The translations under genes and the position numbers were made by a program. From a virus, in the IMG/VR virus record IMGVR_UViG_3300030116_002108, positions 1-25,748 of that record: a stretch of 25,748 nucleotides of DNA; one strand, written 5' to 3'. Numbering within the stretch: the stretch's first letter is position 1; each line of letters begins with the position of its first letter. Positions 2,684 to 17,849 of this stretch are shown one piece after another. The notes under the pieces are model-generated. The model saw only the letters and a program-made list of their open reading frames with translations, was not told the origin of the DNA and searched no databases.

Positions 2684-3400
2684 TTAAAGCAGTTTTCCAG
2701 TAATTCCACCTGTTAAACCTTGAGCCATACCACCGTATATTTGACCCCACATACCAACTTGTGAGTTAAGCATACTTGCTTGGTGACCGAATCCTGCCAT
2801 TTGGTTTGCATAAGCGGCTTGTACACCAGCGTTAGCACCAGCCATACCACCATATTCTATTCCTAACAAAGTAGATTGTCTACCCATTTCAGCTGATTGT
2901 ACCATAGCAGCACCACCTCTTTGTGTCATATCAGCTTGACCAGCACCTTGCCTTTCTAACATTTGTAATTGCATTGAAGCTTGTCTAGCCATTAAGTTAC
3001 CAGCTCTTTCTTGTTGTGATATACCAGCCGCAATTTGCTGGGATTGAAGAGCTCCTTGATTTGCTAAAGCTTGAGCTAATCCAGCTACACCACTACCACC
3101 AGCAGAACCTCTAAGTGCTTGCATTATATTAGCTTGTTGCTGTTGCATTTGCTGTGTTTGAAAGTTAGCAGCCCTCATATCAACTTCCATGTCTTCATAA
3201 AAGTTTTCCATACCTTCAAACTGATTTTTCATGTCAGCATAAGGATTTTTAAACTCAAACTGTCTATACTTATCTTTTTGCTCTTCTAATAATTCACGTT
3301 GAACAGCTTGCTCGTCATTGTATCTTGCTAACTGATCTTGAGAAGCCTCAAACATTTGTCTACTTAAAGCATCTTGTCTTCTTTTAGATCTTCTTCCCAT
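2684..3400 (-). CDS. Ala/Gln/Gly/Met-rich internal virion (DNA ejection) protein
   Basis: This 238-residue protein starts MGRRSKRRQDALSRQMFEAS, a basic segment, followed by a charged helix to about residue 50. A conserved-looking stretch KNPYADMKNQFEGMENFYED (about 51-70) and a Gln/Met tract (about 80-95) follow. From about residue 97 it becomes a small-residue region with repeated Gly-Gly, Ala-Leu and Gln motifs, such as SGVAGLAQALANQGALQSQQ. This composition is typical of short-tailed phage ejection proteins that leave the capsid and line a channel in the envelope (T7 gp14, P22 gp7 type). The assignment rests on composition and neighbours. The start codon overlaps the end of the upstream GNAT-like gene by 17 nt, which suggests translational coupling, and the 605-residue gene follows after 17 nt. 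It is widespread in marine phage genomes as I remember them. Confidence 0.85.
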   Translation of the reverse strand: MGRRSKRRQDALSRQMFEASQDQLARYNDEQAVQRELLEEQKDKYRQFEFKNPYADMKNQFEGMENFYEDMEVDMRAANFQTQQMQQQQANIMQALRGSAGGSGVAGLAQALANQGALQSQQIAAGISQQERAGNLMARQASMQLQMLERQGAGQADMTQRGGAAMVQSAEMGRQSTLLGIEYGGMAGANAGVQAAYANQMAGFGHQASMLNSQVGMWGQIYGGMAQGLTGGITGKLL

Positions 3401-3851
3401 AATTTTTATCTATTTTTCTTAAATTGTTTTCTATATATTTAAAAGCTTCAAATCTTGATGGTGCCATTTCCCAACCTAAATTTCTATGTATATCTGATAC
3501 AAATTTATCATTACAAACTGTAAACAGTTGTAGTGTACCGTATTTCTCTGCTTCAAACTCTACACCTTCTATTAATTGATATATTAAATTTCTTCTATCT
3601 TTTTCTCTGTATTTAGGATTTGAAACTAAATACGTCGTCCAAGCTACAGACGGTACTTCTGATAAAAACAAAAAAGTAGCTGCAACTGGTATATTGTTTT
3701 TTTCTATTATAAAACATCTTTCATCTGCTGGTAAAAAACCTCTTCTTACAGGTTCTGTGCCATAAAATTTAGTCCACCACCATTTCCACCACTCCACACA
3801 TATTTCATAGTCTCCTTGTTTAAAAGACCTAAAGTTTACATTATCATTCAT
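3384..3851 (-). CDS. GNAT-fold protein, T7 gp13-like position, probably not catalytic
   Basis: This 155-residue protein has the order of elements of a GNAT N-acetyltransferase: a first strand and helix (residues 5-30), central strands (about 45-77), a helix after the acetyl-CoA loop (about 83-104), and a last strand, helix and strand containing NDKFVSDIHRNLGWEMA (about 114-130). The acetyl-CoA pyrophosphate loop, normally Q/R-x-x-G-x-G/A, reads R-E-K-D-R-R at residues 82-87 and lacks both small residues, so enzyme activity is doubtful. A Trp cluster WWKWWW lies at residues 21-26. As far as I recall, T7 internal virion protein gp13 also has a GNAT-like fold, and this gene sits directly before a gp14-like protein, which it overlaps by 17 nt. 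A structural or assembly role is therefore at least as likely as acetylation. It starts after a 42-nt AT-rich gap without a Shine-Dalgarno. Confidence 0.82.
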   Translation of the reverse strand: MNDNVNFRSFKQGDYEICVEWWKWWWTKFYGTEPVRRGFLPADERCFIIEKNNIPVAATFLFLSEVPSVAWTTYLVSNPKYREKDRRNLIYQLIEGVEFEAEKYGTLQLFTVCNDKFVSDIHRNLGWEMAPSRFEAFKYIENNLRKIDKNYGKKI

Positions 3852-3893
3852 TTAATTAAATTTGAGTGTATTTATAATCACACTTTTTACTAT

Positions 3894-4256
3894 TTATTTA
3901 CTACTTGGCATTACTTCAGAGCTAATAGCAAATAGCTCAGCTCTTTTTCCAGAAGTATTTTCCATTGTAACTTCAGCATAATAACCTTTTAAACTAGACT
4001 CGTTAGCTTGAATATTTTTAGCAAACATAATAAAATGGCTTATATCTGGTATAAAGTTTGGTATAACAACTTCTACTTGTATTTTAAAACTATCACTAAG
4101 CATCTCTATACTTAAAACATTTCCTAAATATACAGGATCTGTCGATGCAATTGCACCATGTAGATTAGCTGGAGCTTCTACGTAATAGACATAGTCACCT
4201 ACTTGAAGTGAGTTTTTTCTTTTTAGTTTTGTAAATTTAAATTCGTATAAAGCCAT
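3894..4256 (-). CDS. Small beta-rich virion-associated protein, function unknown (120 aa)
   Basis: This 120-residue protein is predicted to be mostly beta strand. It opens MALYEFKFTKLKRKNSLQVG, then has a turn-rich core with VGDYVYYV and YLGNVLSIEML, and ends with a conserved-looking FIMFAKN...SLKGYYAEVTMEN segment at about residues 76-100. There is no signal peptide or membrane segment. It is 11 nt after the 424-residue beta-rich gene, and both sit between the nozzle and ejection genes, which suggests a minor tail or head decoration component. I know similar short proteins only as uncharacterised members of marine and Bacteroidota phage structural modules. No Shine-Dalgarno precedes the start; the leader is AAAAATAAAAC. 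Confidence 0.82.
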   Translation of the reverse strand: MALYEFKFTKLKRKNSLQVGDYVYYVEAPANLHGAIASTDPVYLGNVLSIEMLSDSFKIQVEVVIPNFIPDISHFIMFAKNIQANESSLKGYYAEVTMENTSGKRAELFAISSEVMPSSK

Positions 4257-4267
4257 GTTTTATTTTT

Positions 4268-5542
4268 TTATGATGCCGTACCAGGTATTAATAATTTATC
4301 TAAGTCTATATTTACTTCTTTATTAGAGCTAGAAAATTCTGTTATAGATGCTAATCCTGTAAAAGTTATTTTATCAATAGTATTTGAAAAAAATAACTTT
4401 GTACCAACTGTAAGTTCTTGAGCTTGTTGCATTACTACAGAGCCATCTCCATCAACTCCGGTTGCATCAGGCGTTACAGAAACTACGTTGTTATCAAGAG
4501 TATTGTCTACATCAACACCAAATACCCCGACAACAGAACCACCAGTTATACCTTTAGTATTGTTTAAAGATATTCTAGTGCTAGAACCATCAGTAGCTTC
4601 TGTAATACTACCATCAGCTTTAACAGTTTTAGTTATACCCATAATATTGGTGGCAAAATCTGGAGTTACTGTCAGATTTGTTAATTCAAAATGCAAACCA
4701 GTAGCATCTGCAATTCTTTGCCCATAAGATCTAAATGTCATAGTTTGACCATCTTCAAACGCAACTGATTGAGAAAAAGTAAGTATATTATTATTAAAAT
4801 CTATATCTGTTATAAAAGTATCTGAACTAGGTGCAGTTGTTGTTTTATGATAATACAACTGTGTTCCAACAGCTAAATCTGTTATATCAGCAACAGTTAC
4901 TCGCTCTGAAGCATTCCCACTGCCTTCTAAATTACTTACTATATTTTCTGTTGTTTGATGATAAATTAAATTACCAGCAATAATGTTGTCTTTAATGTAG
5001 TCTTGATAGTCAAGTGGTTTAATACCACCAAAAAGTCTAAAGCCAAAACTACCAGTATCTGTAGTGTTAGTGTTTATTTCAAATGAAAAACTTTTAGTAA
5101 CAAAATCATCACCTGTACCAACTAATGTTGTAGACGGTAAAGAAGCGTACTTTGAAGTATCGTTAGCTTGAGGAGCTAGTGTTATGGTTGTATCTGAAGA
5201 TACTTTTTCTATGTTTTTAGATATAACATTTAAACCTCTATTAGTAACTGTGTCTTCTAGTGTTATTAATTTCACAACGTATGTTCCACCAGTACCGCCT
5301 CCAGTAGGAAAAGTAACACTTCTTTGTAAAAAATTAGACGTCATTTGCACTACTAAGTTGTTTTTAGGAGCATGACCACTAGTAAAAGTATCAGTTGTCC
5401 AATCGTAAAAATTTATAGTTCCTGATTGAGTTATTATTAAAAAAAATTTAGCACCTAATTTAGCTTCAATTCTAATAGTTTTTATTGTTTCAGCAGTAGG
5501 CATTACCGCTGTGTCTAATGATAAATTACTTACTCTACTCAT
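4268..5542 (-). CDS. Beta-rich structural protein with two related segments (424 aa)
   Basis: This 424-residue protein is rich in Thr, Ser, Gly, Val and Asp and predicted to be almost all beta strand, as in phage fibre, collar or decoration proteins. The N-terminal part contains GAKFFLIITQSGTINFYDW (about residues 29-47), a compact beta domain. Two later segments look related: LAVGTQLYYHKTTT (about 223-236) and LTVGTKLFFSNTID (about 378-391), each followed by strands ending in a hydrophobic run, which suggests duplicated Ig-like or similar modules. There is no enzyme motif or collagen repeat. It starts 1 nt after the stop of the giant nozzle gene (TAA-C-ATG), so the two are probably translationally coupled. 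A tail-associated role is inferred from this coupling; the exact function is unknown. Confidence 0.83.
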   Translation of the reverse strand: MSRVSNLSLDTAVMPTAETIKTIRIEAKLGAKFFLIITQSGTINFYDWTTDTFTSGHAPKNNLVVQMTSNFLQRSVTFPTGGGTGGTYVVKLITLEDTVTNRGLNVISKNIEKVSSDTTITLAPQANDTSKYASLPSTTLVGTGDDFVTKSFSFEINTNTTDTGSFGFRLFGGIKPLDYQDYIKDNIIAGNLIYHQTTENIVSNLEGSGNASERVTVADITDLAVGTQLYYHKTTTAPSSDTFITDIDFNNNILTFSQSVAFEDGQTMTFRSYGQRIADATGLHFELTNLTVTPDFATNIMGITKTVKADGSITEATDGSSTRISLNNTKGITGGSVVGVFGVDVDNTLDNNVVSVTPDATGVDGDGSVVMQQAQELTVGTKLFFSNTIDKITFTGLASITEFSSSNKEVNIDLDKLLIPGTAS

Positions 5543-5543
5543 G

Positions 5544-8500
5544 TTATATTATTTCTGTTACTGACTGCGGAAAACCAATACCTTGAACACTAAATTTAGA
5601 CGTATCTATAGTGGAATTATTTGTTAAATAACCTCCTTTTATATAACCAAACCATTTTCCTTCTTTTTTAATAAAGTTGTTTAAACTACCGCTGTCTAAA
5701 TCAGTGTGTATATTTAAACATCTCCAACCTTCAATATCTCCGTTTATAGCATTAGAGTTATAAGAAGCCCCAAAATAAACTGATTCACTAACAGTTGGTT
5801 GAAGCACAAAAGCTTGAGATCCTTCGTAATTTATAGTGTTAAATGTTTTAACAACACTTGGCTCTACGTTTATTAAAGCTGTTACAGTTGATTTATATAT
5901 TTCGCTAGCGTCTAAATGATTGTAAAAAAGATTATAATTTTCAGCTTCACTTTCTACGCAATCAGACCACTCTAAATTAACTGTATCATACTTCATTGGC
6001 ATGTAGTGCCTATATAAATAACCATTTTTAAATGTAAAATATTTTTTAGATAAACTTAAACCACCTTCTGGTACAAAGGATTTAAAACTAGTCCAACCAT
6101 TAACATCTTCACTAAAAGTTATTGTTTTTTCACCTAAACTATCACTAGCGTAATTACTACCCTCAACAGGTAATAAACCTGGTATGTAAACTCTACGCAT
6201 AGAAATATTATCTATCCAACCCGTAACAGTAGATTCTCCAGCACTATCTTTACGTATAACTAAAGTGTTTCTAAAAGCTTCCCCAAAACCATTTTCATAC
6301 TCTGAGTTAGCGTAATCTTCTGTTCCCGGCGCTATTACATCATAACCAAGAGTTGAGTCATAAACCATTCTGTTACTACTACCATCACCAATACCAACAA
6401 CTTTAGTCACTTTCCACCATAAAAAATTACCATTTGCGTCATAAATTGCTTCGGGCGTGTAGTCGTTATGGTGTAATGTTGCTGAAGTAAAGTTTGGATC
6501 TCCAATATCATCAATTCTAAAGCCATAACCCTCAGCATTAAAATAATACATATGAAACACGCCTTGTCCATCTGAAACAGTGTCAGTAATATCATTAAAA
6601 TCTTGCATTGCAAAATTAAAACTTACTTCATATTGTTCATATCTATTTATTTTTTTATCAATAAATTGATTAGCACATACAATAACATTACCATTTCCAA
6701 AGTTAGAATCAAAACTTGGCGCTTCTCTAAATTGTAATCTGCCATCTGGATCTGAATTTTGATCCCAATATATCTGCCAAGAAATAAATTGACTTGTTGT
6801 AGAATCAAAACCGTCAAAATCCCAAGACCCAGCTTGACCACCGTTAAAAATAGTATTTTGTTGCGTTAAAGATATGTTTTTAATACCACAAGTCATTGGA
6901 AGTGATGATGTATTGTGATTAAAAAACGTTAACTTATTTTCGGCAACGTTATAAGTATTACTATAACCACTAGCACTATACTCTTGAACAGTTATAGACG
7001 TGTCTTCAATACCGTCTTTAACAACACCGCCATCAGGACCAGTGCCATCTAGTTTAAATTTAATTTCATATTTACCTGGAGAATTTATACCATAAGCTCT
7101 AATACCTGTAAACTCATTTGTTGCACCACCATAATTACCATAATCTGTAGAGCTACCAGTTACATAAACACTAAGATCTGGAACATCAAAACTATTTGTT
7201 CTAGGATTATTACCTAATTCAAATTTTAAAAGCCAACCATCTCCTTGGTTTAAAATAGGATTAGTACTTAAGTCTTGTGTCCACGAGCTTTGCTGGCCAA
7301 GAGTAGACCAATTGTAATTACCATCTTTCTTACAGTTTTCCCAACATAAATGGTCGTCATTATAGTATAAAACACTATTAGTAAGAGCGTTTATCTGAAT
7401 ATGCCTATCACCATTACCATCGTAAATGCCTCTTAACCAGTTAGTAGCTGTTCCTAAACCGTTAACATAACTTACTTTTTTAACTATTATACTTCTAACT
7501 CTTATATCGTTATTTATAAAATTATAAAAACGTATATTAATGTTTTCAGCACCAAGAGTTGATGATGTTGTAGTATTTACCCAAGAGTCAGATTCTATTT
7601 TAAATACCGCTCTATAAACCCACTGATCTGTACCATACTCCGTTCTATAATGAAGTCTACAACTAGCATGCTCATCAGTATTACCACCTACATTAGTACC
7701 AAAACCACCTATTGTAGATAAATCTTGGTTCTGTGTTAATGAAGAGCCGTTTACACCTCTAATAGCTATATGACCATCTTGTAAGTTTCCACCAGAAGTA
7801 TAAGATCCCACTACTGGTCCAGTACCTCCATTAGAAGGACTAACGTTAATACTAGGGTGATGAGTAGGGTCTAGCTCTATATCAACTAAATACCATTCTC
7901 CAGTTTCAAGAGGACTACCAGTATGGTCGTAAGAAATACCATAGCTACCTTGATTTTGATTAGTATGTATAATTCTCCACCATGGAGAAGCAAGGTCTGT
8001 ATATATTTTTTCACCTGGCACAGCGCCATCTCCATTTGGACCGTTACCACCAGGAACACCTATATCACCAGGTGGTGGTGGGTTATGACTAACGCCAAAC
8101 TTATCTAATATTATTTTATCAAAAACACCAGCTGAATTACCATAATTACCTTCTTGAGGATTTTGACCACCTGGATCTGCGCCTGGTGTTTTCCAACTAA
8201 CAACAGGTCCAGTATAACTATTTGTTGAATCACCTGGCGCTGCTTTTGTTGCTGAAACAGTGGTACCGCCTCTAGCATTACCAAACATGACAGCTTGATT
8301 AAAAGCGTGGTATGCACCAAAATTTGCACTAAGTGGAATACTTCCAATATTAAAATCCCAGTTCGTGTCACCGTGTATAACTTCAACCCAAGCTGGAACT
8401 GCTACATCTGGTATGTTAGGATGGTAATAAGAACCACCACTTGGGCTGTTAATGTAATTGTTTATTGATTGTAAGTTAGCACCAGGACCAGTACCAGCTT

Positions 8501-11500
8501 GATTTAAAACATAACCACCAGCTCCACCGTTAACAGTTGGATCCCAAACTCCACCACCAGCAAGTACTTCGGCTTCTGTATATGTTTCTATAGCGCCTGT
8601 TGTTGGGTCATCATAAGTAGTAACTTGAACACCAGGATTTGCGGGAACAAAATCAGTGTGAGGTGCTTGAACAGAGTAACCTTTAACAACTCTTACGTCT
8701 TTAACTTGAAATATAGGTCTACTCATTGGGTATATACCAGAGCTACCTAATTGATAACCAATATTATAGCTTGTTTGATAATCATTTCCTATAGCTATAC
8801 CAAGATCTTGTATTAATTGTACTTCTTCAATACCATCACCAGTACCATTATGACTACCATCAGCGTTTTGTTGGTTAGGATCTCTAAACTTATAACTAAC
8901 ACCAACAACTAGATCGTAACTAGTTAACTGACTCTGAGAATGCGCATGAGAAAGATCATCAGTGGCGTTATCTATATAACTTGTACGTGGAAATACGAAA
9001 GGACCACCATTTGCAAAAGTATGTATATGATGCCAGTGGTTTGATATTCCACTCCAAGAATTACCAAAAACATTAGTAATATTGCTAATATTTGACGCAG
9101 CATCAAATCCATTGTATGTTACCCCTGTTTCATCAGCGTAAGCAGCAGAAGCTGAACTAGAAATATAACCAGTCCAAGTAGCTAAACCAACACCTGAGTG
9201 TGGCATGCTGTGATATTTAGTGTAAGGATTTATAGCGGGATCTGTCTCATACAATGACGATGCACTTCCTGGTGAAACCATATATTGAACTATATCGGGA
9301 GAAATATAGTTTGGCGTACCATCAGCATTAAGTCCGTCTACAAGTTCAATTACAGGTTCTATTCTATTCATACCATAAAGAGAAGAGACTGTGTGTCCAC
9401 TAACCATATATTCTTTATAACATTTAATCCTAACTTGAATATGTATTTCGTCACCGTTATATATACTGTTATTATAAATACCAACACTGTTAGCTGTTGG
9501 ACTTGGAGAACCCGGATAAGCAGCGTTGTAATAAGTAGCGTTAGTACCACCTTGACTTAATTGTCCTGATCTAGCAAGTTCTGTAAAAATAACTCTACTA
9601 TCTTTGTGAGTTCTGTCAAAAGTAATATGCCCATTATTTGCTGCTCTAGTTATTTGACCAGTAACTTCGTCATAATAATCGTTACCATTATACTGCGAGT
9701 AAGTCATAGGATAACTTTGTATAGCGGTAATTTCAGTAGTTGGATTATTACTATTTGTCGATGTAGCAGGCCAGCTTACACTAGTGTTACCAAAAGGATT
9801 TGCAAAATAAGGGTTACTGCTTGGGTTGCTTTCATCTATAACAGAAACAGAAGCAGTATCAAGAGGTCCACACATCCTAGTTATTTTAGCTCTATGGGCT
9901 CCGCTGTCAACTTCAACAGAAGAGTATAAATTATATGAATTTGCTGCAGTAGGACCAAATAAATCATTAGATGTAGTTGAAGGTCTTGCTAAAAATAAAC
10001 TATCATCTACATTAGAATATGTTGCTTCAGCAAAAGGTACAGCAGCGGTAGCACCTACTGTCGCTGTAGTTGCAGTAGCTATTACTGCTGCTGGAGCTGT
10101 TCCAGAGCCGTTTTGTTCTTGTTGAAAATGACCGACTGGTATGGCTGGATGATTTCTTACGGTTATAGTTCTTCTAAAACTTTCATCTACAGGAAAACTG
10201 TAAACAGGATCAGTGTTTATGTCTTTTGTGTTGTAACTATGACCGTAACTACCACCAACGTTAACACCTCCATTTGTAATATAACTTAAAACAGAAGTAT
10301 CTATTGGTGTGCTTTCTGCACCTAATTGAAAATACGTGTTAAACACTATGTTTTCAGTATAAGTGTTAGAAAATGTTAAATTATAATTTTCTTTATAACT
10401 ATCATAACTACCTATTAAAGAAACGTTATTTTTTAAATTATCTCTAAACCAATCGTGCATACCTGTTTTTGATATAGGTGTTATACCGTCCATAGATAAT
10501 CTTAATACAGCACCTCTTTGTGAGTCTGTAAAATAAGCTCTGTATGATTCTGAAGCAAAAGACTCTGGATTTTTAGCAATACCATACTCTCCAACAAAAG
10601 GCACTGTTTGACCTAAAACGTTTTCGTTTGCTGTTAATTGAGCGTTTCCGTCCGCGTTAAATACGGCATCTTTATTAGCTAATATTTTAATAACTTTATC
10701 TTCACAAAAGGCAACTAAATCTGTATTTCTAGTAAAAAGTTTTTGTATACTACCATAAGTTGGATTTAAATCTTTAGTAATCTTTTCAGCCATTATAAAC
10801 TGATTCAAATCATTAACACCAGAGTTAGAATTATATAATCCGGAAAATATTAAACCACTAGATCTAGACTCTTGCTGATAAGTTTCTTGTGTAATACTAG
10901 AAACTTTAGGACCATTAGTAATAAACATCTCATTAAAATCATCTCTAATTCTATTAGATTCTAATCCATTACCAAAAGAAAAACAATTAAACCAAGGTAA
11001 ACCAACTTCTATTTGTGTAGAAGAAATATTAGGTTTAAATATAAAATTAGTTTTAAAACCAGAAACAGAACCTGTTAAATTTTGTTGTCCTAGCTCAGCT
11101 ATTGTATAACTGCCATCTTCTCTAATAAATTTTACTTGATAATTAGTATAATCTATTTCATTTGTACCGTCACCAGCTATAAAACCAGGCTCAAACGTAG
11201 CTATATTATTATCCCACTCTACTAGATAAACATTATCATCTTCTTGATTAGAAGGTACGTTTAATAATTCAACTTTACAACCTTTCGGAGCAAATAAACT
11301 ATTAGTATGTTTGTTTATTCTAATAGGTATGCTGTCACTAGCCTCATGATATATATCTAAATCAGCTTTTTGTTTTTTAGGACTTAATTCCCATATAGCT
11401 GGAAACTTATTTAAATCACTTAAAATTAAATCTTGAATAGGCTCTAAAAACTCTATATCAGTAAAGTTATCACTATCTAAATCACCAGACATAGCATCTT

Positions 11501-14500
11501 TGTTATTTATACTATTATCTACTGGATTATAACTAGATTGTGTAGGGTTTTTGTCAAGCTCTATAATATAACATAGTCTTCTATTGTGAGCAGCTCCAAA
11601 ATCAACTATTTTTTTCTTTAAATCTTCTAATTTACTTACACCATAATTATTCGCTGCAGAGTCTTTATCAGTAAGGCCAACTGCTTCGTTGTAGTCACCG
11701 TCTTTATCTATAGAGTCTAAAAATTTTAAAGCAAAATCTTCAACAGTAGAATAAGCACTACCCATATGAGTATCATCATAATCATATTTATAACCACCGT
11801 TTCCATTCCAGTATATATTATAATGAGATCTCCAATTAGTGTGATTATAAAGTTTTTTAATTTGCACTTTTTTTATAGTGTATACATTTTCTGTATCTTC
11901 ATGTGCGGTAGCACCAGCAGCTCCAGGTGTAGTATAATTAAATCTAAATTTAGCTCCTGGATATATATTTCTAATAAAATCTCTAATTTTATTATCTGGA
12001 TCTCCGTTTTCATTAAACGTTGGATCCCACTGTCTCTCGTGTAGCTCTCTGTATTCTAAATTATAACCGTAACCAACGCCAGGGCCAGGCGGCTCTTTAT
12101 AAACTTTATAAGTATTATCACTACCGTTGGCATAGTTACCTTCCATAGCTAGATGGTAATGTTTATTTGCGTGACTACTATCGCTACCAAACTTATCAGC
12201 AGCTCTACGTCCAGTAAACACACCACCACCCCATATACCTTGTAAATTGTCCATTATAGTATCTTCTCCATAAAGCATTGGATTACTAAGACTCCAAGTG
12301 TTATTATGTAAATTTCTACCTGGAGCAAAAAACGACAAGTGCATAAAGTGTTTACCTGTTTCTTTATTTTCAGAATAAGTTTTAGTATCTTTACCAACAC
12401 CTCTATCTTCACCGTTCATACCACTTAACCATCTTCTAGGACCTACAGCGTGGTAATCGTTAGTTGTTACAAAACCTTCTAAGCAATTTATATGGTTTGC
12501 TGCTTCGTTACCAAACAAAGTTAATCTACCAACATGTTGATTAGCACCAACAAAACCATCTATTTGTAAACCTTTATTGTTACCATTATCGTCTTCGTAA
12601 GTCCAGTTATCTACAGTATCAAACAAATGAGATGTTGTTATTATACCTTGATTAGGATCAGATCCAGCTTGCGTAAAAACAGTAGAAGAATTTGAAAAAT
12701 ATTGTCCACTCTGATAATAACCAGCACCACCACTCATAAAAGATTTTCCTTTTGTTGCTTCTAACTCGTTTTCTGTTATTTCAGTCCACCATTTTTTTAC
12801 AGGAGGATAAGACCAGCAAGACTCTTTACCAGAAGCATCTCCAAATGAAAAACCAGGCGGTTGATAATGTTGAGTTGTAAAACCAGACCAATTAATACAA
12901 TTAAACTTAGCATAGTTACTATGATTACTTTGACCAGAAGCGATATGCATAGCATCTACAAAAAATCTAGGTCTTTTTGTGTCATTATTTAATTCTGCTA
13001 AAACATTTTCCCACATTACATGCCAGTCTGTTAATCTAGCAGTACCACCAAGACCGTTTACATTGGTATTTCCACCACCAGCTTGTTGTATGTCATTGTT
13101 AGACTGTTTTGTTGCATGGTAAAAACCAAAATAATTAGTAGCACCATAAGGAGCGCCACTACCAAAATGATGAGGGTTATTAGCGTTGGTAAGAGTACTT
13201 TGACCAGGATCATCTTGCCAATACCAAGCCCCTGATTTTGCTTTAACTTGATATTGATTTAATTCTTGCAACTCGTTACCTTCAGTAATATTTTGTGTTA
13301 TTTGGTTTTTAGATATTTTAACAAAAAACTGACCTGAAAAATTTTCTTGTCTTTCTTCTTTTCTTTCTACTTGAAAAACTAAATCTGCATGTAAGTTTGC
13401 CTCGCTTGTGCTATCAGCGGCATTACCACTCACGTGAGCTATATCAGCATCTACTTCTTCAATAGGTCTTTCTAACTTAATAACATAACCATTAGATCCT
13501 ACCCAACCACCCGCACCTTTGTATTTAGAAGAAGCTGTTACTGTACCATCATCAGCAAGTCTAAACCAAGAGAAATACAAATCTGTATATATATCAGCAG
13601 TATCTGGATTAATATCTTTAGCTAATCTTGGTCTTGCAGATGTATATTGACCATTTTCACTCGTCCAACGAAGGATACTTAATTGAAGAGTATCATTACC
13701 TATTTTATCTATCCTAAAATTATCTCTTTGGAAAAACTTTAAAATAGGAGTGTCGTCCTGAGTAAGAGTATTGTTAGAGTCATTAGCAACTGTTCCTAAA
13801 TTAACTAATTTATGTTTTATAGCATCTGGCGCTTCATTTTTTATATCAATTACTTTAAACTTGTTTTCAAAAGTAATTTGATTTTCATTAGCACCTATTT
13901 TCTTTTTTAAAATTATATAATCTTCTTCTGATATTTTATTTCTATCTGAAGAAGGAAATGAAAGCCACAAATGACCTTCTTCATTATCTAATTCATAAAT
14001 ACTCTTAGCTGTCCAAGCTCTTTGCATAGCTAAATTATAATACTCACCTGAGTTTTCTTTTACAAAAAACTTAATATATTCTACCCAGTCAGGAAAATTA
14101 TTTACAGCAGAAGCAACTAGTTGATTGCTTTTACTAGCATTTTTATCTCCTCTTTCATTTTCCCAAGGAATATAAGTAGCTCCAGTATTAGAAGTAAAAA
14201 CAGGTGTTTCTCTACCAAATTCATCTATGTAAACAACACCTACTTGATAGTTTCTTTGTGACTTTATAGAAGGTAAACCTTTAGAATCAAAATCACTTAA
14301 CATCTTTTTTCTATTTCTATAACTTACAAAAACTTTTGGTTTACTACCTATAGTATAGTTTTGTATATAATTACCATATACTATTCTATTACCAACAACT
14401 TCTTGTGCTTTTGCTTTTAAAGGTACGTTATCCCAAGGTCTAAGCAATTGGTTAGCTGGTAAAGCGGCGTATATATTTTCTGTAGTAACTGTATACTTAC

Positions 14501-16097
14501 CAGATGTTAAGTCACCATGCGCAGCTGGCATATGTGATCTTATATTACTCGAAGTAATATTAGTTGAATATCTTGGAACACCTCTTTCTATTAAATTTTT
14601 ATTTTCGTAATTTAATGAAGCGTGCCACTCAAAATCAGTATGTTTTATTGTAGCTATAGAATAAACAACAGGTGAATCTTCTTGTTTATATAGTATATCA
14701 ACTTCAACTACATCTTCAGGCGTGTCTATCGTTATAAAATTACTTAAATCTACGGATTGTATAGAATTAACCATAGCCTTGTTATGCGGCTCTTTTATAT
14801 CGTAAGCGTTGTCTGGATTGTATAAAACACTAGCGTCTAAAGATTTAGTAGTGTCTTTTGTGTATTGAGGGTTAAACACAGGCGCGGTAAACGGTGCCAT
14901 AGGTGAAAACTCACCATCTTGATATTTATATCTATAAGAAAATCTAGGAAATTTAGTTTCAAATAAATTAGGTATTTTGTTTACAGCAGATGTATTTTCT
15001 TGATAATTTATATTTACCTTAAGAGTTTTTGTTGGTTTTGGTTTTATTACCGTAATATGTTTTTCTTCTATATCTATTTTAATATTATTACCAAACACAA
15101 CGTCTCCAACTTTAAAATCAAAATCAGTTGCGTTGTTGTTATATCGTAAATGAGTACCATTTCCATTATCCCAAATTCTTATTTCTTTTTTACCAAGAAA
15201 TTCGTTTTCTCTATAATGTCTTATTTCTCTTACATAACCGTTGTTTGGCTGATCTGCATTACCAAAAGAATTTGTACCAGTGCCAGAGTTTATTAAATTA
15301 CCAGGAGCATCCGTAGATTGTGAAGCATCTATGTATTGATTATTAGCGTCTCTAATTTGTCCAAATGGATCTATTAAAGATTCAAAAGGAATACCAAAAA
15401 TAGCTGCTAATCTTCTTCTTTCAAAAACAATATATTTACCAACTTTTACTCTATCTTTAAGAGAAACAAATGGTGGATGGTTTTCTTCGTTAAGACCAGA
15501 TTGGTCAGATGTAGAAGCATCTGGAAAACCAGTAGTACCAGTGAAATTAGGCATTTTACTTGGCCAAACATATTCTGCAGCTAAACCTGTAAAACTATTA
15601 TTACTAAAACTTATTTGAGTATGAGTGTCTATGTTAGGCGTACCTTGTTTACAGGTGTCTATATTTATTTTTTTAGGTTCACCTTTTCCGTCTGACCAAA
15701 ATAAAAGATTATCAATTATATTTATACCAGTTATAATATTACCAAAAAATTTTAATACAGCTTTTTGTGTACCTGCTTTTAAATCTACAACAACAGGTGA
15801 TGTTACATCATTATCTATATCATACTCTAGTATTACGTCTTTGTCGTACCTAGATATAAACCAATATAATTTATTTGTTTTTTCGTCAGTAATACTACCA
15901 ACACAAGTAAACTCAGACCCAACTAAATCTTCTACTCTTTTATTACCTAATATGTTTTCAATAACACCTACGTTAGAGCTTTCAGAAGTAGAAACCTCAA
16001 CGTTCATAGCGTCTCTATATTGTCCGTTTGGCACTAACCTTTCATCAAGGTCTTTATTCATTTTGCCACCGGTAAAATTATTTTTAACTTCTGGCAT
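5544..16097 (-). CDS. Giant tail nozzle/propeller (stabilisation) protein with large insertion (3517 aa)
   Basis: This is the dominant gene of the window. The N-terminus carries the family signature NNFTGGKMNKDLDERLVPNG followed by YRDAMNVEV and GVIENILGN (residues 6-52), the pattern of the distal tail nozzle proteins of short-tailed phages (P22 gp10 / T7 gp12 role). Other family blocks are FSYRYKYQDGEFSPM (about 390), QVGVVYIDEFGRETPVF (about 610), LTDWHVMWENVL (about 1020), and the long block WFNCFSFGNGLESNRIRDDF to GSYDSYKENYNLTF (about 1695-1910) with YFTDSQRGAVLRLS. The closing block FSEDVNGWTSFKSF, YTVTALINVEP-like strands, INYEGSQAF and KEGKWFGYIKG is in the last about 200 residues (3320-3517). 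Some 1400 residues lie between the last two blocks. The start ATG is 3 nt after the 582-residue gene, and the stop is 1 nt before the next start. There is no tape-measure helical repeat, consistent with a short tail. Start choice is supported by the tight spacing. Confidence 0.93.
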   Translation of the reverse strand: MPEVKNNFTGGKMNKDLDERLVPNGQYRDAMNVEVSTSESSNVGVIENILGNKRVEDLVGSEFTCVGSITDEKTNKLYWFISRYDKDVILEYDIDNDVTSPVVVDLKAGTQKAVLKFFGNIITGINIIDNLLFWSDGKGEPKKINIDTCKQGTPNIDTHTQISFSNNSFTGLAAEYVWPSKMPNFTGTTGFPDASTSDQSGLNEENHPPFVSLKDRVKVGKYIVFERRRLAAIFGIPFESLIDPFGQIRDANNQYIDASQSTDAPGNLINSGTGTNSFGNADQPNNGYVREIRHYRENEFLGKKEIRIWDNGNGTHLRYNNNATDFDFKVGDVVFGNNIKIDIEEKHITVIKPKPTKTLKVNINYQENTSAVNKIPNLFETKFPRFSYRYKYQDGEFSPMAPFTAPVFNPQYTKDTTKSLDASVLYNPDNAYDIKEPHNKAMVNSIQSVDLSNFITIDTPEDVVEVDILYKQEDSPVVYSIATIKHTDFEWHASLNYENKNLIERGVPRYSTNITSSNIRSHMPAAHGDLTSGKYTVTTENIYAALPANQLLRPWDNVPLKAKAQEVVGNRIVYGNYIQNYTIGSKPKVFVSYRNRKKMLSDFDSKGLPSIKSQRNYQVGVVYIDEFGRETPVFTSNTGATYIPWENERGDKNASKSNQLVASAVNNFPDWVEYIKFFVKENSGEYYNLAMQRAWTAKSIYELDNEEGHLWLSFPSSDRNKISEEDYIILKKKIGANENQITFENKFKVIDIKNEAPDAIKHKLVNLGTVANDSNNTLTQDDTPILKFFQRDNFRIDKIGNDTLQLSILRWTSENGQYTSARPRLAKDINPDTADIYTDLYFSWFRLADDGTVTASSKYKGAGGWVGSNGYVIKLERPIEEVDADIAHVSGNAADSTSEANLHADLVFQVERKEERQENFSGQFFVKISKNQITQNITEGNELQELNQYQVKAKSGAWYWQDDPGQSTLTNANNPHHFGSGAPYGATNYFGFYHATKQSNNDIQQAGGGNTNVNGLGGTARLTDWHVMWENVLAELNNDTKRPRFFVDAMHIASGQSNHSNYAKFNCINWSGFTTQHYQPPGFSFGDASGKESCWSYPPVKKWWTEITENELEATKGKSFMSGGAGYYQSGQYFSNSSTVFTQAGSDPNQGIITTSHLFDTVDNWTYEDDNGNNKGLQIDGFVGANQHVGRLTLFGNEAANHINCLEGFVTTNDYHAVGPRRWLSGMNGEDRGVGKDTKTYSENKETGKHFMHLSFFAPGRNLHNNTWSLSNPMLYGEDTIMDNLQGIWGGGVFTGRRAADKFGSDSSHANKHYHLAMEGNYANGSDNTYKVYKEPPGPGVGYGYNLEYRELHERQWDPTFNENGDPDNKIRDFIRNIYPGAKFRFNYTTPGAAGATAHEDTENVYTIKKVQIKKLYNHTNWRSHYNIYWNGNGGYKYDYDDTHMGSAYSTVEDFALKFLDSIDKDGDYNEAVGLTDKDSAANNYGVSKLEDLKKKIVDFGAAHNRRLCYIIELDKNPTQSSYNPVDNSINNKDAMSGDLDSDNFTDIEFLEPIQDLILSDLNKFPAIWELSPKKQKADLDIYHEASDSIPIRINKHTNSLFAPKGCKVELLNVPSNQEDDNVYLVEWDNNIATFEPGFIAGDGTNEIDYTNYQVKFIREDGSYTIAELGQQNLTGSVSGFKTNFIFKPNISSTQIEVGLPWFNCFSFGNGLESNRIRDDFNEMFITNGPKVSSITQETYQQESRSSGLIFSGLYNSNSGVNDLNQFIMAEKITKDLNPTYGSIQKLFTRNTDLVAFCEDKVIKILANKDAVFNADGNAQLTANENVLGQTVPFVGEYGIAKNPESFASESYRAYFTDSQRGAVLRLSMDGITPISKTGMHDWFRDNLKNNVSLIGSYDSYKENYNLTFSNTYTENIVFNTYFQLGAESTPIDTSVLSYITNGGVNVGGSYGHSYNTKDINTDPVYSFPVDESFRRTITVRNHPAIPVGHFQQEQNGSGTAPAAVIATATTATVGATAAVPFAEATYSNVDDSLFLARPSTTSNDLFGPTAANSYNLYSSVEVDSGAHRAKITRMCGPLDTASVSVIDESNPSSNPYFANPFGNTSVSWPATSTNSNNPTTEITAIQSYPMTYSQYNGNDYYDEVTGQITRAANNGHITFDRTHKDSRVIFTELARSGQLSQGGTNATYYNAAYPGSPSPTANSVGIYNNSIYNGDEIHIQVRIKCYKEYMVSGHTVSSLYGMNRIEPVIELVDGLNADGTPNYISPDIVQYMVSPGSASSLYETDPAINPYTKYHSMPHSGVGLATWTGYISSSASAAYADETGVTYNGFDAASNISNITNVFGNSWSGISNHWHHIHTFANGGPFVFPRTSYIDNATDDLSHAHSQSQLTSYDLVVGVSYKFRDPNQQNADGSHNGTGDGIEEVQLIQDLGIAIGNDYQTSYNIGYQLGSSGIYPMSRPIFQVKDVRVVKGYSVQAPHTDFVPANPGVQVTTYDDPTTGAIETYTEAEVLAGGGVWDPTVNGGAGGYVLNQAGTGPGANLQSINNYINSPSGGSYYHPNIPDVAVPAWVEVIHGDTNWDFNIGSIPLSANFGAYHAFNQAVMFGNARGGTTVSATKAAPGDSTNSYTGPVVSWKTPGADPGGQNPQEGNYGNSAGVFDKIILDKFGVSHNPPPPGDIGVPGGNGPNGDGAVPGEKIYTDLASPWWRIIHTNQNQGSYGISYDHTGSPLETGEWYLVDIELDPTHHPSINVSPSNGGTGPVVGSYTSGGNLQDGHIAIRGVNGSSLTQNQDLSTIGGFGTNVGGNTDEHASCRLHYRTEYGTDQWVYRAVFKIESDSWVNTTTSSTLGAENINIRFYNFINNDIRVRSIIVKKVSYVNGLGTATNWLRGIYDGNGDRHIQINALTNSVLYYNDDHLCWENCKKDGNYNWSTLGQQSSWTQDLSTNPILNQGDGWLLKFELGNNPRTNSFDVPDLSVYVTGSSTDYGNYGGATNEFTGIRAYGINSPGKYEIKFKLDGTGPDGGVVKDGIEDTSITVQEYSASGYSNTYNVAENKLTFFNHNTSSLPMTCGIKNISLTQQNTIFNGGQAGSWDFDGFDSTTSQFISWQIYWDQNSDPDGRLQFREAPSFDSNFGNGNVIVCANQFIDKKINRYEQYEVSFNFAMQDFNDITDTVSDGQGVFHMYYFNAEGYGFRIDDIGDPNFTSATLHHNDYTPEAIYDANGNFLWWKVTKVVGIGDGSSNRMVYDSTLGYDVIAPGTEDYANSEYENGFGEAFRNTLVIRKDSAGESTVTGWIDNISMRRVYIPGLLPVEGSNYASDSLGEKTITFSEDVNGWTSFKSFVPEGGLSLSKKYFTFKNGYLYRHYMPMKYDTVNLEWSDCVESEAENYNLFYNHLDASEIYKSTVTALINVEPSVVKTFNTINYEGSQAFVLQPTVSESVYFGASYNSNAINGDIEGWRCLNIHTDLDSGSLNNFIKKEGKWFGYIKGGYLTNNSTIDTSKFSVQGIGFPQSVTEII
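6135..10355 (-). other. About 1400-residue modular insertion in the nozzle protein
   Basis: These bases encode roughly residues 1915-3320 of the nozzle protein, between two blocks that I associate with adjacent parts of the conserved family. The insert begins with a linker-like stretch including an Ala/Thr tract (about residues 1999-2020). Beta-rich modules follow whose final strands look alike: FQVKDVRVVKG (about 2465), IRVRSIIVKKV (about 2867), CGIKNISLTQQ (about 3072) and GWIDNISMRRV (about 3295). Such endings are common in jelly-roll carbohydrate-binding modules. A Pro/Gly linker NPPPPGDIGVPGGNGPNGDG lies near residues 2671-2690. No hydrolase motif is evident. Receptor or glycan binding is an inference. 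Boundaries are good to perhaps 20 residues. Confidence 0.6.
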
Positions 16098-16100
16098 TAA

Positions 16101-17849
16101 TTAGTGTTTTATATGTTTTGATTTACCTCTTAAAATTTGAGTTATTTCTTCTAATTTAATATTTGATAATCTTAGCTTAGCTTGTCTTACAGCAGCAAAT
16201 CTTTCTTTTTTAAATCTAGGTACAAATTGCTGTCCAAAAGCAGATGAAGAAACAATAGCATAAGCTATAGATTTATACATAGCTTCTTCAGCAAATTTAT
16301 GAACTGTTGTTTCTTGATCAGTACCAAGACTATCGCTTATATAATCTAATATCACAGTTTTTCCTGAAATATTAGAACTAAAATGTATTCTACCGACTCT
16401 ATCATCTATGTAAAAGCTACCGTTTGTCTGCGCATGAGCTGGATCAATACCGTATCTTTCACCTTCGTTAGGCCAATAAATATGGTTTTCGTAATCTCTA
16501 TAATCTTGAACATCGTTTTCGCTAGGATTGTGAGATTTATATTTATTCCATGTTGTTGAATTTTTATCCGTGCTATTTTCTGATAAATTAGGATTTTGAC
16601 CTTCTGTTACAACCTCAACTAAATCTACAAAGTTTACTTGATGTGTATTGTTTGTAGATGTTAAAGGTGTAGGTTGAACTAAAGAGCCAAAATTAGGAAA
16701 CGGTATGTTAGGCGTAGCTGGATCGTTGTCATGATCGTAAGTATCTAAAGTTGTTATAGCGTCAGAAGTCCAAGGAGAAAAACTTTGTACATACACCCAA
16801 ACTTGGTCAATATTACTTACATCTATCTCTAATATTTCTTTTTGACTACTAGTACCATCTGACCATTCTAAGTAAGCGGGAGATCCAGAAGGAGCTATAA
16901 CATCATAATTAGAAGTATTAAAGTTAGGAGACATATTAGGCCCGCCAGGAGCCGAAGCGTAAGCCGATTTTAAAACTGGCGTTGTATGTGTGTTAAGCCA
17001 ACCAACATCTGGATTTACAGTAGTAAGACCAACTCTTATAACACCAAAATCACATAGCAGTGTTCCACTACTATCAGTTTGTTGCGCTCCTGAACCAGCA
17101 AAAGCCCTTAAATCTACAAAGTTTTCTGAACTAACATCTAAGAGTTGCCAAGCAGCATAAGCCCTACTAGAACCAACAACACCAAAACCGTTTTGCCAAA
17201 GATGTTTAAATTGAAGCTGCTCATTGTTTACTACTATAATATCTTCTACAAAAGAAATTCTAAACTTTGGAGGATTACCAGTTGTTTGTTCCCAACTATC
17301 CCAAGCACCTGATCTACCTGGGTTGGAAACTTGCCAAGCAGCTCCAAGTATACTATAATCAGGGTTTTGTATAAGGTTTGTTTGATCTAAATATTGACCT
17401 AACTCACCAAAGAAATATTCACCTGTACTGTGTTGTTTTATTTGAAAAGGATTGCTAGTGTGTTTAGTAGGATATAAAGGATGTTTTATACCGGCACCGT
17501 CAACAGCTGTTAACTTAGTATAATTAACATAATCATGTGGTAAAGGCATAACTAAACTTGGTGGTAAATCTATTTGTTGACTCTTAAAAGACTTTAACGT
17601 GTCAAAAGATAATTCTTGTAAAGCTCTATGAGCATGAAAAGCAACATCTATTTTTTTAGCGCTTGGTATAACTTTACCTTCACCAACGTATGAAATCATA
17701 AATTGATTTACTATATCTTCTAAACTTAAAAACTGATAATGACCAAAAGAATTACCTTGATAATAAGATATTTGTGGATCTCCTTTTTTCCAACCAGTTT
17801 GTTGAGTACTTGCGTGTGCTCCTCCTCCGGAGCCATAGTGTGTTGGCAT
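16101..17849 (-). CDS. Tail tube/adaptor-like protein with inserted beta-sandwich (582 aa)
   Basis: The N-terminal part (residues 40-130) has SLEDIVNQFMISYVGEGKVI, a helix AKKIDVAFHAHRALQELSF, then LPPSLVMPLPHDYVNYTKL. The C-terminal part (470-582) has NGSFYIDDRVGRIHFSSNI, TVILDYISDSLG, a helix VHKFAEEAMYKSIAYAIVSS and a basic end RLSNIKLEEITQILRGKSKH. Helical arms around a beta core resemble the tail-tube or gatekeeper adaptor of short-tailed phages (T7 gp11 / P22 gp4 role); this role is inferred from layout and position before the nozzle gene. Residues about 157-417 look like an added module. It opens NLIQNPDYSILGAAWQ, like a carbohydrate-binding jelly-roll, and ends VNFVDLVEVVTEG. The start is 6 nt after the upstream stop (gap GAAAAT), without a Shine-Dalgarno. 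I am sure it is a real structural gene and less sure of the exact role. Confidence 0.87.
   Translation of the reverse strand: MPTHYGSGGGAHASTQQTGWKKGDPQISYYQGNSFGHYQFLSLEDIVNQFMISYVGEGKVIPSAKKIDVAFHAHRALQELSFDTLKSFKSQQIDLPPSLVMPLPHDYVNYTKLTAVDGAGIKHPLYPTKHTSNPFQIKQHSTGEYFFGELGQYLDQTNLIQNPDYSILGAAWQVSNPGRSGAWDSWEQTTGNPPKFRISFVEDIIVVNNEQLQFKHLWQNGFGVVGSSRAYAAWQLLDVSSENFVDLRAFAGSGAQQTDSSGTLLCDFGVIRVGLTTVNPDVGWLNTHTTPVLKSAYASAPGGPNMSPNFNTSNYDVIAPSGSPAYLEWSDGTSSQKEILEIDVSNIDQVWVYVQSFSPWTSDAITTLDTYDHDNDPATPNIPFPNFGSLVQPTPLTSTNNTHQVNFVDLVEVVTEGQNPNLSENSTDKNSTTWNKYKSHNPSENDVQDYRDYENHIYWPNEGERYGIDPAHAQTNGSFYIDDRVGRIHFSSNISGKTVILDYISDSLGTDQETTVHKFAEEAMYKSIAYAIVSSSAFGQQFVPRFKKERFAAVRQAKLRLSNIKLEEITQILRGKSKHIKH
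16599..17381 (-). other. Probable inserted jelly-roll module in the 582-aa tail protein
   Basis: This stretch encodes residues about 157-417 of the tail adaptor protein. It starts with NLIQNPDYSILGAAWQVSNP, which matches the usual opening of CBM4/9-type jelly rolls (Asn-Leu-Ile-x-Asn ... Trp). Predicted beta strands rich in Trp and aromatic residues follow, and it ends with VNFVDLVEVV, the kind of last strand seen in that fold. The helical parts expected of an adaptor lie on both sides. The fold and the boundaries are inference. Confidence 0.45.

Follow-up and report, generated by a model that had tools for sequence, protein, structure and literature searches.

The muzzle, or tail nozzle, is a hexameric protein at the end of the short phage tail and gates the ejection of DNA and protein. 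To our knowledge, host recognition by the short-tailed crass-like phages of marine Bacteroidota is largely unknown. The closest described muzzle is gp44 of phi-crAss001 (PDB 7QOK/7QOL; PF25729, PF25731), whose reported length variation concerns the crass and IG2 domains and not the blade treated here, and whose tail-tip crass domain was proposed earlier to contact the cell surface (PMC10172136). The nozzle of phage SU10 is a seven-bladed propeller in which Ig-like domains have been inserted between blades, at the tip of the tail (PMC9509320), and the BACON-domain tail proteins of crAssphages carry tandem repeats of carbohydrate-binding domains in a fast-evolving tail protein (review PMC10136315). 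The open-access papers searched describe neither insertions nor splits in the late-blade turn treated here.

The muzzle studied here shares with gp44 a gene position behind the ring protein gene as well as homologous late blades and the MUZ_C region, and gp44 is its best structural match; gp44, however, is a protein of 1,371 aa with a two-residue turn at the place where the present protein has ~1,413 residues. The SU10 nozzle is likewise a propeller nozzle with domains inserted at the tail tip, but it was matched to relatives of our muzzle by fold only, its insertion lies between blades 2 and 3, its total length is ~910 aa and SU10 has separate short tail fibres. Tandem repeats in a fast-evolving crass-like tail protein are also found in the BACON-domain proteins, although these are thought to be tail spikes, apart from the muzzle. 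Phage phi18:3 (Pachyviridae) has a homologous muzzle with extra Ig/cadherin-type domains at the same point, but there the gene is cut, with gp114 ending in the appendage and gp115 supplying the block that follows (the C-block, see below) as a second protein.

A crassvirus-type muzzle of 3,517 residues

The window, i.e. the whole stretch of DNA analysed (a 25,748-base virus record), carries on its minus strand a cluster of head and tail genes in the order terminase end, portal (PHROG match phrog_6547), acidic 375-aa protein, major capsid protein (phrog_13704), two tail proteins, an ORF of 3,517 aa and further structural genes. A near-identical copy lies in the longer contig IMGVR_UViG_3300030451_002728 (40,611 bases), and the cultured relatives are Flavobacterium elemoviruses and phages of Cellulophaga, Tenacibaculum and Maribacter, belonging to Pervagoviridae, Pachyviridae and Elemovirus. 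The structural cluster also includes an acetyltransferase-like gene (3384-3851, minus strand; phrog_17252), and the gene at this position in MW202828 is annotated as an N-terminal acetyltransferase. Outside the window, the same virus encodes a small protein in which the motif 'SYPSGHS' resembles that of PAP2 phosphatases (L179 354-896).

The 3,517-aa protein (~390 kDa) is encoded by a single uninterrupted ORF (5544..16097, minus strand) that matches the virion structural protein phrog_14478 at E 1.7e-133. Its gene adjoins that of the tail ring protein (582 aa, phrog_13977; 16101..17849, minus strand) and precedes the cargo protein genes, large internal-protein genes lying downstream of it, as expected for a crassvirus-type muzzle. 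We conclude that the ORF is such a muzzle; its preliminary description as a nozzle homologue is borne out by the match to gp44 and by the Foldseek nozzle matches given below.

Profile HMMs covering 162 loci delimit an N-block (~residues 1701-1909; 10371..10997, minus strand), which would hold the propeller blades as far as strand B of a split blade, and a C-block (5547..6134, minus strand; PF25729, gp44 1200-1280), which would hold strands C-D of that blade, the next blade and the part that joins the ring. Between them lies an insert of ~1,413 aa (~153 kDa; ~residues 1910-3321; 6135..10370, minus strand) with boundaries accurate to a few residues, missing in 70 and present in 42 complete homologues. 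The motif YKENYNLTF (residues 1901-1909, window 10371-10397) closes the N-block, and FSEDVNGWTSFKSF (residues 3328-3341, window 6075-6116) follows in the same frame, with NYEGSQAF (3423-3430) and KEGKWFGYIKG (3478-3488) further on in the C-block. The PF25729 (crAss_MUZ_C) match of this muzzle is weak (5760..5936, minus strand; 18.4 bits vs a cut-off of 27) and sits at the expected place. The separation of YKENYNLTF from the C-block motifs had been put at about 1400 residues; it is ~1,413 in one frame, and the coordinates first given to the insert were correct within a few residues.

Position of the insert in the muzzle fold

We gathered 162 loci with profiles of the blocks before and after the gap, yielding 129 distinct muzzles, 114 of them complete and used for gap statistics. 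The gap was bimodal: the blocks were separated by 58 aa or less in 70 of the 114 muzzles (median 11.5) and by 659-1441 aa in 42 (median 1256), with only two intermediate cases of 178 or 211 aa. Blocks are adjacent in the cultured phages Calle, phi40:1, Gundel and Elemovirus (QMP84796), and at the L043 junction, which reads '...NEYNLT-LDS-TNVTVSFDEKVKGWTSFKSF', and the L125 junction ('GEYNLTIDNKTVSYSEKVKGW', given also as 'EYNLTIDNKTVSYSEKVKGW') the two blocks read as two sides of a tight turn. The site is empty in L045, L047, L052, L076, L079 and L082, in which the 424-aa and 120-aa genes flank the muzzle as they do here. The preliminary description gave the motifs as close neighbours in related marine phages and asked whether short homologues lack exactly this segment; adjacency is indeed common, and the short homologues do lack it. 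Several of the metagenome contigs are fragments, and adjacency could on that account be only apparent, the short homologues being truncated or mis-assembled; yet it occurs in cultured phages, in 70 complete metagenomic genes and in gp44 of the solved structure, which refutes this reading and leaves it a negligible probability. The architecture of the long form, in turn, recurs in dozens of contigs that are independent of each other, ruling out an assembly artefact.

Relatives without the insert allowed the site to be placed in a solved structure. All 50 examined matched PF25729 (crAss_MUZ_C, best E 5e-13) and 11 of the 50 matched crAss_MUZ. Searches of PDB sequences with their profile or with single sequences did not recover gp44, but profile-profile alignment succeeded (hhalign probability 96.8%, E 3e-10, gp44 1054-1280) and maps the insertion site to a two-residue KD beta-turn of gp44 (~1198-1199) between 'DVYFTY' and 'HCLCYSE'. 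An AlphaFold2 model of a natural insert-less relative, the L079 fragment, was poor overall (pLDDT 60), but reached pLDDT 86-95 over residues 250 to ~370, where strands 316-320, 325-329, 334-338 and 343-348 are predicted and the insertion point (330-333) forms a confident hairpin. The best solved match of this model was the crAss001 muzzle (Foldseek, E 4e-11), and the next among unrelated propellers were the nozzles of Pa223, GP4, A4, SU10, VP1, Pan3 and P22 gp10. Junctions, model and gp44 alignment together support the earlier proposal that the large region is an insertion within the propeller, in a late blade, and not a C-terminal appendage. From the strand pattern in the model, we infer that the site is the B-C hairpin loop of the penultimate blade, blade 6 by our count.

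In propellers, B-C loops share a face with the connections between blades. In gp44 an Ig domain sits below the propeller on the connection from blade 2 to blade 3 (PMC10172136), and because the B-C loops share the face of this connection, the insert should be distal; its distal exit is thus deduced from propeller topology.

Other occupants and breaks of the same turn

The turn is also used in other lineages. L060 and L077 carry inserts of 729 aa and 178 aa there, which blastp relates neither to one another nor to the main family. Cellulophaga phage phi18:3 has its muzzle gene cut at the turn: gp114 continues ~500 residues past it with an appendage of bacterial Ig/cadherin domains (Big_9, E 2.8e-20), gp115 starts with 'MPKTITYSEKNKGWTSF', and both are annotated in the record as virion proteins detected by MS/MS. 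Matches are likewise spread over two structural proteins in phi13:2, phi19:3 and phi46:3. MW202828 has three ORFs, comprising the N-block plus ~350 aa, an ORF of 183 aa and then 'MEHTLSYDDGVKGWTSF', and in L075 a stop three residues beyond the N-block is followed by a restart at 'MAYTLTFREDVKGWVSF'. The L075 split alone could be a single-base sequence error, but those of phi18:3 and MW202828 cannot be one. Since the gene is broken at the turn, the muzzle of the split lineages would be made of two chains.

Departures from the common arrangement were also seen away from the site itself. The L159 muzzle (3011-11197) has ~185 residues just before the strand that precedes the main site and a domain corresponding to the flanking 120-aa protein fused at its end. 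In Maribacter phage Panino (L167 7989-11899) the muzzle frame is broken within the N-block, by frameshift or sequence error, and profile coverage is contiguous over two overlapping ORFs. In L155 (9314-10534, 407 aa) and L157 (9269-10552, 428 aa) a short ORF encodes the late-blade portion of the muzzle, indicating that in these phages the split lies upstream of the N-block.

The end of the muzzle varies as well. C-terminal extensions of at least 100 residues occur in none of the 42 complete insert-bearing muzzles vs 37 of the 70 insert-less ones (Fisher 2e-10, kinship being ignored). Movement of one module between hairpin and C-terminus was considered and rejected, given that inserts and C-terminal tails had no blastp or profile homology to each other. 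The initial picture was also incomplete, since relatives place appendages C-terminally or split the gene at the insertion turn. In the window, the 120-aa protein (3894..4256, minus strand), identified by HMM matches, aligns with the muzzle C-termini of cultured phages (hhalign 99.5%, E 2.4e-22); its domain is fused to the muzzle C-terminus in Elemovirus, Callevirus, Gundel, Panino and phi18:3 gp115, whereas here it is separate, indicating that the muzzle end is also a point of gene fission or fusion. Homology of this domain to the end of gp44 was undetectable. Between the genes of the muzzle and the 120-aa domain lies that of a 424-aa beta-rich protein (4268..5542, minus strand) with homologues in most relatives.

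Two further observations concern other genes. The ring protein is longer than its ~290-aa relatives by a central stretch of ~250 residues, and the median length of ring proteins is 518 in insert-bearing phages vs 345 in those without insert or tail. Many loci whose muzzles bear C-terminal extensions also contain sequence related to a phage-encoded protein (L175 10351-12936) that starts like a signal peptide and has a MAM domain along with numerous 'GCTDP..NYNP.A..DDGSC' repeats.

Given that the turn is empty, differently filled or cut in relatives, it resembles a natural docking port for host-touching parts. It would be a general permissive port, which other lineages filled with unrelated domains or at which they broke the gene. 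The broader proposition, for which we see even chances, is that the penultimate-blade B-C hairpin of crass-type muzzles is an evolvable port that stands empty, holds unrelated megadalton-scale adhesins or is cut, with a large adhesin placed either there or at the C-terminus and not at both.

Nature, evolution and possible role of the insert

The 42 inserts form one homologous family, with 1,621 of the 1,980 ordered insert pairs matching by blastp; pairs without a match include those with L060, L077 and L159. AlphaFold2 predicts the C-terminal half of the insert (residues 2707-3327; 6117..7979, minus strand; mean pLDDT 78.5) as three tandem beta-sandwich domains, separate from the propeller core to which the region might have belonged, and domains 2 and 3 are a detectable repeat (hhalign 94.4%, E 8.7e-8). 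Foldseek matched this half to Vip3 proteins, CBM22 pairs, a Bacteroides surface glycan-binding protein (SGBP-B) and GH101 modules, with CBM4 lower; TM-scores were low, 0.1-0.3 for most matches, so that carbohydrate binding is a hint at the level of the fold. Viral matches were to CBM-cenC, discoidin-like, lectin-like and tail proteins, and one family member matches HpiC1-like (E 4.8e-4). Pfam and family profile searches recognised no binding or catalytic family above cut-off in the insert, tblastn against phage records gave no match, and a single-sequence search of the collection returned the same virus only. Among the ORFs of the loci searched there was no stand-alone copy, profile matches being found only in ORFs with an N-block. 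The insert is thus, in its modelled C-terminal half and among these loci, a family of tandem beta-sandwich domains confined to muzzles.

Conservation of the insert was below that of the N-block in each of the 861 pairs of insert-bearers. Among eight closely related pairs, dN/dS was 0.01-0.06 for the N-block, 0.07-0.24 for the C-block and 0.18-0.51 for the insert, and while dS of insert and N-block was comparable, dN of the insert was ~2 to 70 times higher. Such fast evolution suits a host-facing part, but relaxed constraint would look similar and, dN/dS being below 1, may be its cause. All insert-bearers except L060 fall in one region of the tree, and a single clade of them was not rejected (AU p 0.64) and had the higher likelihood; these phages may thus descend from one gain. 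Repeated loss of the insert, suggested by a first tree, was not upheld, the single insert-bearer clade scoring better.

The precise insertion in a conserved site and the relatives that lack it would also fit a removable element, an intein or intron-borne ORF missing from the mature muzzle. We consider this very improbable: Pfam found no intein (Hint) domain and the domains are all-beta and tandemly repeated, on which grounds the intein was rejected, no stop, splice or endonuclease features were seen, and the frame runs on without a break in 42 complete genes and shows purifying selection in the close pairs.

The suggestion that the insert replaces separate tail fibre genes did not find support. 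The 66.9-kb contig of L032, which is insert-bearing and of the same architecture, encodes a 599-aa fibre-like protein ~20 kb downstream of the muzzle (L175:6818-8617; weak phrog_972 match, E 1.2e-5); the longer contig with the near-identical copy of the window stops short of the corresponding place. This gene would also fit an insert that is mainly structural, lengthening or stiffening the tail tip or clamping muzzle subunits while separate fibres recognise the host, as would the insertion borne by the upstream ring protein and the example of SU10, where inserted nozzle domains mainly build or extend the nozzle and fibres bind (PMC9509320). However, the insert protein evolves much faster than the core, its fold matches are mostly to binding-type tandem sandwiches, and L045, L052, L076 and L079 manage without it despite the same flanking genes; we therefore hold a mainly structural role to be unlikely, though of all the alternatives it deserves the most weight.

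Our preferred reading, which we consider probable, is a muzzle with a module of ~1,413 residues in the B-C turn of a late blade, most likely serving as a distal glycan-binding adhesin. The multi-domain module, inserted into this hairpin turn, would hang below the propeller in six copies per tail (~0.9 MDa) and bind host-surface glycans beside the gate, where it could couple attachment to opening. Natural split genes in cultured phages indicate that the chain can be opened at the insertion turn. The gate protein itself bears the fastest-evolving part, of putative binding type, at one turn that can be located in a solved structure, and an insert at the gate protein offers a testable route by which attachment may be coupled to ejection.
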